DNA of 42,379 bases from the NCBI GenBank assembly GCA_016215705.1, contig JACRIR010000091.1:1-42379 (forward strand), written 5' to 3'. The translations under genes and the position numbers were made by a program. The notes below the pieces were generated by a model. The model was not told the DNA's origin and did not search any database. It saw nothing but the letters and a program-made list of their open reading frames with translations. Positions 3,875 through 38,629 of this stretch are shown here, piece after piece (within the stretch, counting starts at the first letter, position 1; each line of letters begins with the position of its first letter). This stretch comes from Candidatus Poribacteria bacterium. Lineage in GTDB: Bacteria > Abyssobacteria > SURF-5.

Positions 3875-4109
3875 AAGAAGATGGGGGAGCGAATCCATCA
3901 TTGTCATTCTGTTGAAGCTGAATCAGTACGAGTATGGGAAAAGCAATCCGTATGCCAATATTTGTTTCGGCGGATAGAAGTCCGCAAGTCTATTTCTTCC
4001 AGAGGGTTAACGATCTTGGAGGCGACGCAGCAGACATCATGGTGAAGACCGGAAGGGGTAATTCTTGCCAGTAAGGGGGGAAAAAGGAATCTGCCGGGCA
4101 CACAAGTAA

Positions 4110-4129
4110 GGGCGCAATTCATTGCGCCC
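4110..4129. repeat. GGGCGC-ATTCAT-GCGCCC palindrome
   Basis: A 20-bp palindrome GGGCGCAATTCATTGCGCCC followed by CCTGTACGCATGAAT. It belongs to the dispersed family with GTAGGGGC/GCCCCTAC arms. Confidence 0.7.
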
Positions 4130-4185
4130 CTGTACGCATGAATCCAGAAATGTTATGTCCGTGATGCAAGAAGTTAAGGAATTTT

Positions 4186-4209
4186 GTAGGGGCGCGATTC
4201 ATCGCGCCC
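4186..4209. repeat. GTAGGGGCGC palindrome, GATTCATC core
   Basis: GTAGGGGCGC followed by GATTCATC and GCGCCC, near-identical to the unit at 15737-15759. It is the second unit of a tandem pair with 4110-4129. Confidence 0.7.
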
Positions 4210-4287: not shown

Positions 4288-4330
4288 GCTTATTCGGGGA
4301 CACGATGCGGCATCATGTCCCCGAATAAGC
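4288..4330. repeat. 43-bp GGGGACAC palindrome
   Basis: Arms of 21 nt around a single central base, beginning GCTTATTCGGGGACAC and ending GTCCCCGAATAAGC. There is one mismatch, which would be a G-U pair in RNA. It lies 36 bp beyond the HDOD gene stop in that gene's direction and could terminate its transcript, though no clear T-run follows. Confidence 0.75.
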
Positions 4331-8813: not shown

Positions 8814-8854
8814 GAAAATAGGGGACACGATGCCGTATGGTGTCCCCTATTTTC
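8814..8854. terminator. GGGGACAC palindrome between convergent genes
   Basis: A 41-bp palindrome with arms GAAAATAGGGGACAC... and ...GTGTCCCCTATTTTC, and two mismatches near the centre. It lies 18 bp past the acyltransferase stop and 22 bp before the VWA gene stop. The strong GC stem flanked by A/T arms ending in TTTT on both strands fits a bidirectional terminator. It also belongs to the dispersed palindrome family. Confidence 0.55.
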
Positions 8855-8876: not shown

Positions 8877-11312
8877 CTATACTCCGATCCGAGCGGCCAG
8901 GGATCGAAGTGCGCGGCGGAGCTCGAAGGGAGGCTTTTCAAATTCCTCGCGTGTGAACAGATTCTGGACGGCGGAACGCTCGACGAGCACGAGCGCCACC
9001 TCGCTGGTCTCGCGCGGAATGACATAGAAGCGCTTGCTCCACTCCGCTGTTTCACCGACCATGTAGCCTTCCAACAGTTCGCCGTCCTTGAAGATCACCT
9101 CGACTGGGTGTCCGGCGGGGCGCGATCCGGCGCCGGTAGATAGGCCACCCGTGAAACGGCCGGCCCTTCGTACCATGAACACCGCTTTCAGTTCCGAGAA
9201 TTCGATCACCATTCTCGCGTCCAAAGAGGGCGCTCCCTTGGGAAGGAACTCGAAACTTACGGCGTCGATATCCCACGAGATGAGCATCCCCCGGATCGAT
9301 CTGCCGTCGGCAAAGCGTACAATAGTCTCTCTGTAAACTTCAGGACATCTATAGAGGAGCACGAAATCGCCGATTGAGAGGATATCCTTGTCGCCGATTT
9401 CTTTCCCGCGCGTGTATGCGACATCATTGACCAGGATCGGGTTGTAATGAAGAGGCTGGACAAAAACGATTGTGCCAACGTCGGTCCTGGCGGTTGTGAT
9501 TCTCGCATGCATATCCGCCACGGAAGTATGCGGCAACACGATATCGGCTCCGCCGCCGCTTCCAATCGTGAGTGAACTAGTCGCCCTGAGTTTGCCCATC
9601 CGGCGCAGATTAAAGAACCGCATCTTTCGCGGGGTGGGATTCTTGATGATCTCGAGTGTTCCGGCGAGATCGGTGGAGGGAAAACCATATCGTCTGACTG
9701 CGTAGTAAACCATCCATAGTGTCACAATTGCCAGAAGCCCCAGCGCTGCCTTGGCCGCGAGCGATTTTGCGATTTGGGCGATCCTGGTGAATTGTTCATA
9801 GGTCGCTGCCATGGGAAGTTCGCGTTTGCCCCACCGGGACAGCCCTCTCTCGGTATAGAGTCTTACCGGGATATCGGTGGGATAGACGCCAACGCCGGGC
9901 TCATTTGTGACAAAAGATATCATGCCCTGCAGTTCCCATCCCTTGCTGAGCACAAAATCGGCGCCGGCAATGAGGTTGAGTTCTGCTGTCAATGTTCCCT
10001 GCGCTATCTTGAATCGCGGCCTGAGCTCGAGACCCGGCGGCAATGTGAAATTCGATTTCATGATCAGTGACTCTATTGGGATGTTCTTCGTGGGGAACAG
10101 CTCCATATTTGCCTCATATCGTGACCCGGGCGAGATCGGGCCGAAACCGAGGGAAGGCCTTCTCACCGAATGCCTGGCCTCTTCACCGAGCATGGCGCGC
10201 ATACGCGGGGCAAGCACGGTTTCAGATGCGGGCTTCTTTTGGAGGGATTCCTGATACGCCGCCGTGATGACGGCATGGGCGACGGCGTCTTGTCTCTCGA
10301 GGACCCGAATCTGCGGCTGAACCCTTGCCTTCAAACTAACTTGCGGAGGCGAGATTGCCAAATGTTTATCCGAGGGCAGGACGAAACTCAGCCTGCACAT
10401 GTAACTTCCCAGTCTCTCCGGAAACGTCACACTTATGTTTTCCTGCCACGAATCCCCCCGGCACACTATTTCTTGCGGGGCCACGGCCAAGGCTGCCGAA
10501 TAATGGCCGCCGTCTTCCTCGGCGATTTCGGCTACAACCGAGAAAGTCGTGCCACGGATGGCCGGCGTGCTTGGCTGAAACTCGACCGCAATTTCCCGGG
10601 TCAGATTCGGCGCCAGGACTGTTCCGAGGTCGTCTTTGGAAAGTCTCGGCTCCAGCCGCATGCCGGCGCGGCTGGCCCAATCGATAAACCAGCGCACGTC
10701 CGACTTCGCCTCGGGTTCGATCGGGGCTTTGAAAGCAAACCAATTGTTGTCAGGCAGTTCCTGAGCCTCGCGCTGTTTAAGGGACGTAAATGTGACAAGA
10801 TTCGGGATATCCTTCGGCGGGTTGTCTTTGTCATCGCTCAACCATATAAGCACCCTGCGCCTGTCCGGACTGCTTGCATATAATTGCTTTATTTCCTGCA
10901 ATCCCCGGTCCATGCCGGCGGAGAGGCTGGTGGCATACTCCGTTGGCGCCATTTCTTCAAGCACGGACAAGAGCCTGGCGATATCATAAGACGAAAGTAT
11001 CCGCGCGCGTTCAACCAGACGGGATGATGCGCCGAACGTCACGATTGTGACTCTGTCGCCCAGTTGGGCGGAGGACACGATCCGCTTGGCTTCGGCCTTC
11101 ACTTTGTCGAAAATGTCGGACATGCTCGTGCTTACGTCCACCACGATAATCAAGTCTTGTGTTTCTTCGGCGAGAGCAGCCGTGCAGAAAAGCAAGGTGA
11201 GAGCTATCACGAGCAAGCCGACAAGCAATCGGGGCGTGAAGGCGGGCACACGATGCCGCATTGTGTCCGCGATTTCCCGAAGCTTGAAAAGATAGATCGA
11301 CGAAAGTCGCAT
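8877..11312 (-). CDS. Membrane-anchored VWA-FHA protein 1
   Basis: 811 residues from ATG 11312 (AGGAAG about 9 nt upstream); ATG 11261 is an alternative. The order is: basic n-region and Sec signal peptide cleaved near TAALA-EE (about residue 48); VWA domain with MIDAS D59-x-S61-x-S63 (VVDVSTS); a long beta-rich region; a TM helix at about 520-545; an FHA-like segment (IGSGGGADIVLPHTSVADMHARI region, about 575-655); and two C-terminal beta modules beginning VRFADGRSIRGM and VIFKDGELLEGYM. The first module ends in an LKAVFMV pattern. Inference: the VWA domain is periplasmic and the FHA domain cytoplasmic, so the protein could link a periplasmic metal-dependent contact to phospho-peptide binding. 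It is a paralogue of the protein at 17961-20573. Residues about 15-24 are encoded by a remnant of the GGGGACAC palindrome. The domain reading is firm; the function is unknown. Confidence 0.8.
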   Translation of the reverse strand: MRLSSIYLFKLREIADTMRHRVPAFTPRLLVGLLVIALTLLFCTAALAEETQDLIIVVDVSTSMSDIFDKVKAEAKRIVSSAQLGDRVTIVTFGASSRLVERARILSSYDIARLLSVLEEMAPTEYATSLSAGMDRGLQEIKQLYASSPDRRRVLIWLSDDKDNPPKDIPNLVTFTSLKQREAQELPDNNWFAFKAPIEPEAKSDVRWFIDWASRAGMRLEPRLSKDDLGTVLAPNLTREIAVEFQPSTPAIRGTTFSVVAEIAEEDGGHYSAALAVAPQEIVCRGDSWQENISVTFPERLGSYMCRLSFVLPSDKHLAISPPQVSLKARVQPQIRVLERQDAVAHAVITAAYQESLQKKPASETVLAPRMRAMLGEEARHSVRRPSLGFGPISPGSRYEANMELFPTKNIPIESLIMKSNFTLPPGLELRPRFKIAQGTLTAELNLIAGADFVLSKGWELQGMISFVTNEPGVGVYPTDIPVRLYTERGLSRWGKRELPMAATYEQFTRIAQIAKSLAAKAALGLLAIVTLWMVYYAVRRYGFPSTDLAGTLEIIKNPTPRKMRFFNLRRMGKLRATSSLTIGSGGGADIVLPHTSVADMHARITTARTDVGTIVFVQPLHYNPILVNDVAYTRGKEIGDKDILSIGDFVLLYRCPEVYRETIVRFADGRSIRGMLISWDIDAVSFEFLPKGAPSLDARMVIEFSELKAVFMVRRAGRFTGGLSTGAGSRPAGHPVEVIFKDGELLEGYMVGETAEWSKRFYVIPRETSEVALVLVERSAVQNLFTREEFEKPPFELRRALRSLAARIGV
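11243..11275. repeat. GGGGACAC palindrome remnant inside coding sequence
   Basis: On the minus strand GGACACAATGCGGCATCG, followed by TGTGCCC, differs from the intergenic palindrome consensus at only two core positions. It lies in frame in the 5' end of the VWA-FHA gene, encoding the stretch around ADTMRHRVPA just before the signal-peptide hydrophobic core. The palindrome supplies an ATG (11261). Confidence 0.65.
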
Positions 11313-15233: not shown

Positions 15234-15444
15234 CTGTACTACTCACGTCCGAAATCGCGAATTCTTGTTGTGATTTCTTGCACGAGCCTGACGCATATTG
15301 ATCACACGGGCGCAATGAATTGCGCCCCTACAGACATGAATGAAGAAAATCGGGGACACGATGTCGCATCGTGTCCCCGATTTTCTGAGACGCGATTCAT
15401 CGCGCCCGATGCTCGCTGTTTGGCTGCGGCCACGCCGCGCTGTG
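15234..15444 (+). repeat. Composite multi-hairpin repeat, copy B (with nested palindrome)
   Basis: About 211 bp from CTGTACTACTCACG to GCCGCGCTGTG. Stems: GAAATC...GATTTC; GGGCGCAAT...ATTGCGCCC; a nested 41-bp GGGGACAC palindrome (15345-15385); CGCGAT-TC-ATCGCG; GCGGC-CAC-GCCGC. Relative to copies A and C, the nested palindrome replaces about 27 bp including the GTAGGGG arm. Confidence 0.85.
15345..15385. repeat. 41-bp GGGGACAC palindrome nested in copy B
   Basis: Perfect 19-bp arms (GAAAATCGGGGACACGATG and its complement) around a TCG loop. It is the reverse complement of the palindrome at 38477-38517 with the same core. Confidence 0.9.
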
Positions 15445-15616
15445 TTTTTCCGTGGTTCTGTGTTCGGCCGTGGGAATGACATACTCCCACTTTTATTAGA
15501 CCAGCCTTCTGCCGCGAAGGTTAAATGTTGGAAGTTTTATTCGTGTTCCAAAACGTTTTGCCGTTGATTTGTGGCAAATGATATTGTAGGATGATTGGGG
15601 CGTTCTGAGCGCTTTA

Positions 15617-15794
15617 CTGTACTACTCACGTTTGAAATCGTGAATTTCTGTCGCGATTTCTTGCACGAATATAAGGCATATTAATTACACGGGCGCAATG
15701 GATTGCGCCTCTACAGGAGTATATGAGGGATTTCCGTAGGGGCGCGATTCATCGCGCCCGATACGGCGATTTGGTTGCGGCTTGCCGCGCTGTG
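15617..15794 (+). repeat. Composite multi-hairpin repeat, copy A
   Basis: 178 bp. Stems: GAAATCG (15634-15640) with CGATTTC (15654-15660); GGCGCAAT (15692-15699) with ATTGCGCC (15702-15709); GGGCGCGAT (15740-15748) with ATCGCGCCC (15751-15759); GCGGC (15777-15781) with GCCGC (15784-15788). It ends 21 bp before the Fe-S gene start, so it probably lies in that gene's leader. Confidence 0.85.
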
Positions 15795-15815: not shown

Positions 15816-16526
15816 ATGTACATCGATCAAGAACTCTGCAAGAAATGCCTCGACTGCAAACCTGTTTGCCCGATGGGCGCTTTCATATTGAAAGATAAGA
15901 AAGTCGTAGTTGACTACGAAACCTGCGTCGAATGCGGTGTATGCCTGCGATTCGAGATTTGTCCGGAGAACGCGATCAAGCAGGTGGATGAAATTCCGTA
16001 TCCTCGAATTCTCCGATCTGTCTTCTCCGACCCGCTCCAGCGCCACGAGAGCACGGGCATACTCGGGCGCGGCACCGAGGAAATGAAGACGAACGACGTC
16101 ACCAACCTGTTCCAGAAAGGGAAGATTGGTTTCTCGATTGAATTGGGACGTCCGGTGGGCGGCGCATATCTGAGAGATCTCGAGAAGGTAGTCAAGAAAG
16201 TCACGGCGATGGGGGTCACGTTTGCTGAGGACAATCCAGTGGTGCAATTGATCGCGGACCGCTCGACGGGAGCGCTCAAGCCTGAGATTCTCGGTGAGAG
16301 GGTGCTCAGCGCAATAGTCGAGTGTCTGGTTCCGGAAGAACGGGCTCTGCGGTTCATTGACGAAATGGCTGAATTTCTTAGAGCTGAGGTGGACTGTGTG
16401 GTCACAATGAGCGCTGTCTCTCGCGCCGATGATGACGGGAACTCTGCCTTCTTGCAGAAACTGAAAGAAGTCGGCAAGAACCCTTACCCAAACGGGAAAG
16501 TAAATATTGGGATGGCGATTGTGTAG
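15816..16526 (+). CDS. Di-[4Fe-4S] ferredoxin-like protein with C-terminal domain of unknown function
   Basis: 236 residues from ATG 15816, with AAGGAA about 6 nt upstream; a longer in-frame start at 15723 is translated from the composite repeat and was rejected. Residues 1-60 hold two cluster motifs: CKKCLDCKPVCP and CVECGVCLRFEICP. The second has one extra residue before its last Cys. The rest (about 75-236) is a distinct domain with GILGRGTEEMKTNDVT, IELGRPVGGAYLRD and ADRSTGALKPEILGERVLSA, which I cannot name. It has no TM segment, so it is likely cytosolic. It is followed by a Cys-rich gene and an FmdB-type gene on the same strand. A role in electron transfer or redox enzyme maturation is inference only. 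Confidence 0.8.
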   Translation: MYIDQELCKKCLDCKPVCPMGAFILKDKKVVVDYETCVECGVCLRFEICPENAIKQVDEIPYPRILRSVFSDPLQRHESTGILGRGTEEMKTNDVTNLFQKGKIGFSIELGRPVGGAYLRDLEKVVKKVTAMGVTFAEDNPVVQLIADRSTGALKPEILGERVLSAIVECLVPEERALRFIDEMAEFLRAEVDCVVTMSAVSRADDDGNSAFLQKLKEVGKNPYPNGKVNIGMAIV

Positions 16527-23958: not shown

Positions 23959-24005
23959 CCCATAATTCGGGGACACGATGCGGCATCGTGTCCCCGAATT
24001 ATGGG
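23959..24005. terminator. GGGGACAC palindrome between convergent genes
   Basis: A 47-bp palindrome, 23-bp perfect arms (CCCATAATTCGGGGACACGA...) around one base. It lies 89 bp past the GT39-like stop and 4 bp before the stop of the facing gene. It is a plausible bidirectional terminator and a member of the dispersed family with the longest perfect arms in the window. Confidence 0.55.
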
Positions 24006-25586: not shown

Positions 25587-25629
25587 CTTTAATTGGGGAC
25601 ACCATGCGGCATGGTGTCCCCAATTAAAG
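25587..25629. repeat. GGGGACAC palindrome (CACC variant) in a gene leader
   Basis: Perfect 21-bp arms around one base, CTTTAATTGGGGACACC... It sits just upstream of the ribosome site of the GT-C-like gene, so it may form a leader hairpin there. The palindrome core reads ACACCATG rather than ACACGATG, with the matching change on the other arm. Confidence 0.85.
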
Positions 25630-34861: not shown

Positions 34862-35036
34862 CACAGCGCGGCGGAACCGCAACCAAAACGCCACATCGGG
34901 CGCGATGAATCGCGCCCCTACGGAAATCCCTCGTATACTCCTGTAGGGGCGCAATTCATTGCGCCCGTGTGAGTTTCATACGGTATGTCATGAGAATCGC
35001 GACAGGAATTCGAGATTTCGAATGTGCGTAGTACAG
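34862..35036 (-). repeat. Composite multi-hairpin repeat, copy C
   Basis: 175 bp in reverse orientation, without the nested GGGGACAC palindrome. It keeps the GGGCGCAAT-GA-ATTGCGCCC and GGGCGCGAT-TC-ATCGCGCCC stems, the GGAGTATA...GAGGGATTTCCGTAGGGG spacer seen in copy A, and a GCGG-TT-CCGC stem where A has GCGGC-TT-GCCGC. Confidence 0.85.
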
Positions 35037-35941: not shown

Positions 35942-35974
35942 ACCGGGGACACCTTGCCGCAAGGTGTCCCCGAT
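35942..35974. terminator. GGGGACAC palindrome (CACC variant) between convergent genes
   Basis: Arms CGGGGACACCTTGC and GCAAGGTGTCCCCG are perfect around one base. It lies 8 bp after the amidohydrolase stop and 3 bp before the MsrAB stop. It is compatible with a shared terminator. Its core TTGC-C-GCAA differs from the ATGC of the others, again with both arms changed. Confidence 0.55.
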
Positions 35975-38417: not shown

Positions 38418-38629
38418 CACAGGGCAGCACAGCCGCACCCAAACAGCGCGCATCGGGCGCGATGAATCGCATCTCAGAAAATCGGGGACACGATGCGACA
38501 TCGTGTCCCCGATTTTCTTCATTCTTGTCCGCAGGGGCGCAATTCATTTGCGCCCGTGTGATTAATATGCACTGAGTTCGCGCAAGGAATCACGACAGGA
38601 ATTCATGATTTCGAACATGAGTAGCACAG
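38418..38629 (-). repeat. Composite multi-hairpin repeat, copy D (with nested palindrome)
   Basis: 212 bp in reverse orientation. Like copy B it carries the 41-bp palindrome (38477-38517) in place of the A/C spacer. Its first stem is GAAATCA...TGATTCC (A has GAAATCG...CGATTTC), with covarying G-C to A-T positions, and its last stem GCGGC-TGT-GCTGC has a G-U pair. Confidence 0.85.
38477..38517. repeat. 41-bp GGGGACAC palindrome nested in copy D
   Basis: Same as 15345-15385 in reverse orientation; 19-bp arms perfect. Confidence 0.9.

Follow-up and report, generated by a model that had tools for sequence, protein, structure and literature searches.

Families of GTAG-tagged REPs are treated by Di Nocera et al. 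(2013), who give 24 family consensuses and report REP dimers inside longer repeated palindromes in Anabaena variabilis (PMC3733652). Such families display a GTAG tag, a perfect palindrome, hundreds of copies and inverse dimers with GTAG inside (TT dimers), as does the repeat unit described here. Yet the dimer of the unit lies between two different end hairpins and not within one palindrome, and its ends also enclose interiors free of REPs. The palindrome of the unit, GGGCGCRATTCATYGCGCCC, is likened to these families by its architecture and may be one of the 24. In the REPIN (Bertels and Rainey 2011, PMC3116915), two REPs likewise stand in inverse orientation at a constant distance and form one long hairpin, and the REPIN is associated with RAYT transposases, as the REP of the unit is in other genomes. 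Unlike a REPIN, the unit has a conserved part extending beyond the doublet, and no cognate RAYT was found in its host MAG. BOX elements of Streptococcus pneumoniae resemble the unit in layout only, as they combine fixed end modules (boxA and boxC) with a variable interior and stem-loops, occur in ~100 copies and show mutual insertion with other repeats; a BOX, however, repeats a single module in its interior, is bounded by terminal inverted repeats and duplicates its target (PMC3049150), whereas the unit lacks terminal inverted repeats and is found with interiors of several unrelated kinds. Finally, IS200/IS605-family ends share with the unit a hairpin near each end, the lack of terminal inverted repeats and the lack of visible target duplication, but no autonomous parent with the unit's ends was found.

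The window, i.e., the whole stretch of 42,379 nt analysed here, is one contig (C4) of a MAG from Candidatus Poribacteria bacterium (Abyssobacteria, SURF-5) that comprises 5.47 Mb in 270 contigs and is 92% complete. The multi-hairpin unit of 175-212 bp proposed in the initial annotation was recovered at all four of its positions and with its four stems in constant order, namely as copies A (15234-15444) and B (15617-15794) on the plus strand and copies C (34862-35036) and D (38418-38629) on the minus strand. Copy B, with 178 bp, is canonical, and the length difference among copies is due to a nested palindrome present in A (15343-15387) and D (38475-38521). From the left, the unit is composed of a left end module (5m), a spacer of ~25-30 nt, an inverted REP, a 21-nt spacer, a direct REP and a right end module (3m). 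The 5m, ~44 nt long, comprises CTGTACTACTCACG and the hairpin GAAATCRYG/CRYGATTTC and is located at 15617-15660 (+) in copy B and at 15234-15277 (+), 34993-35036 (-) and 38586-38629 (-) in the other copies. The inverted REP, GGGCGCAATGAATTGCGCC-CCTAC, has its GTAG pointing inwards and occupies 15691-15714 (-) in copy B, with counterparts at 15308-15331 (-), 34943-34966 (+) and, in degenerate form, 38531-38555. The direct REP, GTAG-GGGCGCGATTCATCGCGCCC, is found at 15736-15759 (+) in copy B (GTAGGGGCGCGATTCATCGCGCCC) and at 34898-34921 (-) in copy C; only the portion after GTAGGGG remains in A and D, where the nested palindrome (GGGGACACGATG..CATCGTGTCCCC, 43-47 nt) replaces the foot of the right REP. 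The 3m, GGTTGCGGC..GCCGCGCTGTG, closes the unit at 15772-15794 (+) in copy B and at 15422-15444 (+), 34862-34884 (-) and 38418-38440 (-) in the others. At the centre, the two GTAG-GGGCGCRATTCATYGCGCCC palindromes, with GTAG inwards and 45 nt from start to start, form one long hairpin, and beyond this REP doublet the unit is conserved over ~70 bp on its left side and ~35 bp on its right. In total, the window holds four 5m against none expected from dinucleotide shuffles, and seven REP cores, again against none expected.

The core of the unit is a REP doublet of the known GTAG REP/REPIN kind (BIME, 'TT dimer'). The GTAG tetranucleotide stands at the foot of the palindrome, which occurs 243 times in the genome, compared to no occurrence of a reversed control pattern, and is mainly extragenic. 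Of 25 close pairs among exact matches, 22 stand in -/+ orientation at a distance of exactly 45 nt, and the inverse orientation, regular spacing and joint folding are those of a BIME or REPIN. For the core, the GTAG tag, the inverse pairing, a copy number in the hundreds and the RAYT neighbours elsewhere bear out the 'REP relative' among the options first proposed. The accompanying view that all copies are intergenic is correct in the window only if the ferredoxin gene starts at the ATG at 15817 and not at 15723, and elsewhere three of 74 framed elements lie inside called ORFs. One of these, a copy of the unit (L021, G000:C186:14499-14674), lies in frame within an ORF of 977 aa encoding a TPR/glycosyltransferase protein. 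The interdomain linker in which it is found contains two further palindromes of REP-like type, which are likewise read through as peptide (..VGANSFARF..VGARFIAP..). Elsewhere in the window (4106-4209), two REP cores are found 80 nt apart in direct, not inverted, orientation and without end modules.

The same palindrome is present in more than 100 contigs of many phyla and groups, including Armatimonadota, Acidobacteria, Gallionella, Gemmatimonadota, Chloroflexi, Nitrospirae, Eggerthellaceae and Omnitrophota, among others. A search of one paper collection for the exact REP sequence returned no paper printing the CGATTCATCG version, and one on repeats in Abyssubacteria returned nothing relevant; to our knowledge, no REP family has been described in Abyssobacteria before. 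Genomes containing the REP were searched with the RAYT flanked by GTAG REPs in sister genome G001. In Gallionella (L172), the exact REP occurs at 1275-1298 and 1435-1458, together with two close variants, beside a RAYT-family ORF that is still open where the retrieved contig stops, and the REPs there represent both variants seen in the window, CAATTCATTG and CGATTCATCG. Similarly, several REPs of the CGATTCATCG variant adjoin RAYT-family ORFs in an Armatimonadota genome (L179, L184 and L188), and the ORFs of L179 and L184 contain the motif MPNHVH. SURF_17 encodes a related RAYT accompanied by a different GTAG REP (L173). As the REP family adjoins RAYT genes in these other genomes, it is presumably a RAYT substrate. 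The host MAG, 92% complete, yielded no REP-associated RAYT in this search, and its three Y1 genes are one DnaA_C-type RAYT and two near-identical RAYTs with the TIR TTATTCCGGGGACATAATACCTATTT. The former (L034, 1-1034, G000:C225) encodes a RAYT-like Y1 transposase whose C terminus holds a DNA-binding domain of DnaA type; inverted repeats of 31 nt (GGGGTCAGGTCTTGAAATTTGAATTAA) border the gene, and one REP-like site lies ~2.5 kb from it. The latter two (L035, 1-2412, G000:C28) lie 1 kb apart with a common terminal repeat and an unrelated ORF between them. Both kinds were rejected as direct parents, as the REP is absent from their ends and each has its own terminal inverted repeats.

Using copy B as query, 49 matching pieces were identified in the MAG, and searching the retrieved loci with a profile gave ~40 near-full places; as several contigs stop within a copy, the copy count is a lower bound. 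The unit and its separate modules were also found in SURF_17 (Candidatus Abyssobacteria, sister genus). The family-mate genome G002 was identified with SURF_17, a 3-kb stretch of L110 matching G002 at 100%, which places the host in the Abyssobacteria lineage. The exact left-module pattern gave no match in a wider collection of genome contigs, which possibly excludes the host genome's own records. Outside the unit ends, the flanks share ~0 bits of information, and the ends are therefore sharp. The two bases preceding the left end are most often CT (C in 29 and T in 33 of 56), a lean that may be read as a weak hint, as it matches the CT dinucleotide cleaved by TnpA-REP of E. coli (PMC8266576). 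Inspection of 29 flank pairs of filled sites revealed no target duplication. The end modules themselves have 78 (5m) and 133 (3m) matches in the genome, compared to none for either reversed pattern, and both occur also without REPs. When considering the 3m matches listed (100 of 133), at least 33 of the 78 5m sites have a same-strand 3m downstream, with a spacing of 151-315 bp in 32 of the 33 pairs and of 481 bp in one. Of the framed interiors that were read, some hold the REP doublet, with or without the nested palindrome, and one (L214) holds only a GGGGACACCATG palindrome; a further group (L215-L223, L229, L247 and L250) combines pyrimidine tracts with repeats of the AATCCGTG/ATCTGCGG type (ATCYGYG). 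The members of this group are intergenic, oriented mosaics in which the pyrimidine tracts (CTTCTTCTTTTTC) and the AATCCGTG/ATCTGCGG repeats meet at CYGYG-like steps, and those that were read share the strand of the 5m-3m frame. As the 5m and 3m ends bound other interiors too, what spreads in this lineage is apparently the framed element as a whole. It could tentatively be speculated that a distinct class of mobile elements exists in which two fixed, non-inverted end hairpins move as a cassette and the interior (REP doublet, TIR-type palindrome or pyrimidine/ATCYGYG repeats) is exchanged, with the REPINs as passengers of another single-strand system.

The nested palindrome of copies A and D (AGAAAATCGGGGACACGATGTCGCATCGTGTCCCCGATTTTCT) has independent copies elsewhere and belongs to a separate, very abundant repeat family (GGGGACACGATG..CATCGTGTCCCC, GGGGACA) with 85 distinct versions in 743 kb. 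In the window, GGGGACACGATG..CATCGTGTCCCC is found at 4296-4322, 8821-8847, 11244-11270, 15352-15378, 23969-23995, 25595-25621, 35945-35971 and 38484-38510. Copies A, D and others have in common both this nested palindrome and the junction at which it sits, and the composite has therefore multiplied after that insertion. Among the parts of the unit, it is only here that strong compensatory change is seen, as 944 of 1105 cells are Watson-Crick paired, compared to a shuffled maximum of 719. For example, the inner stems are CGATG/CATCG (35) and CCATG/CATGG (20), and the outer stems include AAAATC/GATTTT, TAATTC/GAATTA and TTATTC/GAATAA. Subfamilies each spreading as a palindrome would match this pattern without selection for the fold. 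The CGGGGACA motif recurs in the TIRs of the two C28 RAYT genes, and the palindrome family may thus be a TIR-derived mini-element.

From the four copies in the window, it had initially been argued that covariation maintains the fold of the unit rather than its primary sequence. However, the first stem of copy A reads GAAATCG/TGATTTC with a G-T pair, the stem GAAATCG/CGATTTC belonging to copy B; GAAATCA/TGATTCC of copy D contains an A.C mismatch, and the G-T changes of the right stem are one-sided. When all four stems were scored on an alignment of 30 full genomic copies, the covariation score was 0.051 compared to 0.052 in shuffled controls, with two cells changed on both sides (shuffled mean 3.3), one pair with double changes (shuffled 1.2) and 93.7% paired cells in both data and shuffles. 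The pair at alignment columns 25-39 of the first stem, on which the argument rested, is unpaired in 16 of the 30 copies. In general, the REP stems are almost invariant in sequence, the 5m and 3m stems change mostly one side at a time, and no pair type changed on both sides was seen among the commonest types listed for 122 distinct 3m hairpins; as the end stems vary without compensation, conservation of the fold over the primary sequence is refuted for the unit. A structured non-coding or cis-regulatory RNA with a conserved fold is accordingly very unlikely. Such an RNA would agree with the fixed order of the four stems and with the folding of copy B, which is better than that of shuffled sequence on both the plus (z = -5.2) and the minus strand (z = -3.9), as well as with a slight excess of G-T over A-C on the unit strand in the 5m (100:51, mostly from two columns) and in the 3m stems (35:21, p = 0.08). 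Yet it is largely refuted by the covariation scores, by the absence of any Rfam family match in the window at the gathering threshold, by the complete replacement of the interior in many elements, and by neighbour genes that are unrelated and stand in no constant orientation to the unit. The genomic context was assessed for 74 framed elements in 743 kb chosen around known copies, and its numbers are approximate, as gene calling relied on a simple codon score. Here, co-directional, divergent and convergent gaps held 35, 15 and 10 elements compared to 164, 56 and 31 among all gaps of at least 150 bp, showing no preference, and elements between co-directional genes showed no orientation bias (15 same and 20 opposite, p = 0.50). 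These counts also bear on a role as bidirectional terminators or mRNA-stabilising hairpins selected at gene ends. While the strong palindromes would suit this role, which has been proposed for REPs of other bacteria (PMC3733652), the elements show no enrichment on the downstream side of genes, their share of divergent gaps is as expected, and three of the four copies in the window (A, B and C) are flanked by genes in divergent orientation, making the role highly improbable. Orientation relative to raw GC skew (24 compared to 50 elements, p = 0.003) was suggestive of a lagging-strand insertion bias, but the bias was not robust after transcription correction (30 compared to 44, p = 0.13) or by region.

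The dispersed and mostly intergenic elements of 150-265 bp with sharp ends could recall a classical MITE, an element that carries terminal inverted repeats, duplicates its target and is mobilised by a DDE transposase. However, the ends are not mutual inverted repeats (CTGTACTACT compared to the reverse complement CACAGCGCGG), which refutes this origin as stated, and with no target duplication found on inspecting the flanks, it is scarcely credible. More closely related to the explanation preferred here, and differing from it in the enzyme that moves the frame, is the possibility that an IS200/IS605-like element has 5m as its left and 3m as its right end and that the units are its internal deletions carrying REP doublets as cargo. 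In favour of this, 5m and 3m keep their order and strand around a variable interior, a hairpin lies near each sharp end, terminal inverted repeats are lacking and no target duplication was observed. Yet no parent element was found, none of the 5m-3m pairs found spans a gene (the longest spacing among the 3m matches listed being 481 bp), and none of the three Y1 genes of the host lies between a 5m and a 3m, leaving such a descent possible but rather doubtful. The unit is probably a non-autonomous mosaic repeat derived from mobile DNA, in which a REP doublet core is set between two fixed end hairpins. In such a repeat, the doublet, once single-stranded, would form a hairpin, which a RAYT/TnpA-REP (HUH, Y1) transposase would cleave and transfer. 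The frame would most likely be copied through single-strand transposition of the HUH/Y1 kind, either at the end hairpins or at the REPs, with the whole frame apparently moving as a unit, and HUH activity may be present in this lineage or have been so in the past. The copies themselves are most likely selfish or of no consequence to the host, and they may incidentally influence neighbouring transcripts.

For the reading of genomes, the unit provides a caution, as the covariation suggested by four copies vanished with thirty. One REP family and its RAYT can now be placed in many phyla, Abyssobacteria among them. Finally, REPINs located in a modular frame that also holds other interiors offer a testable case of small bacterial repeats capturing each other.
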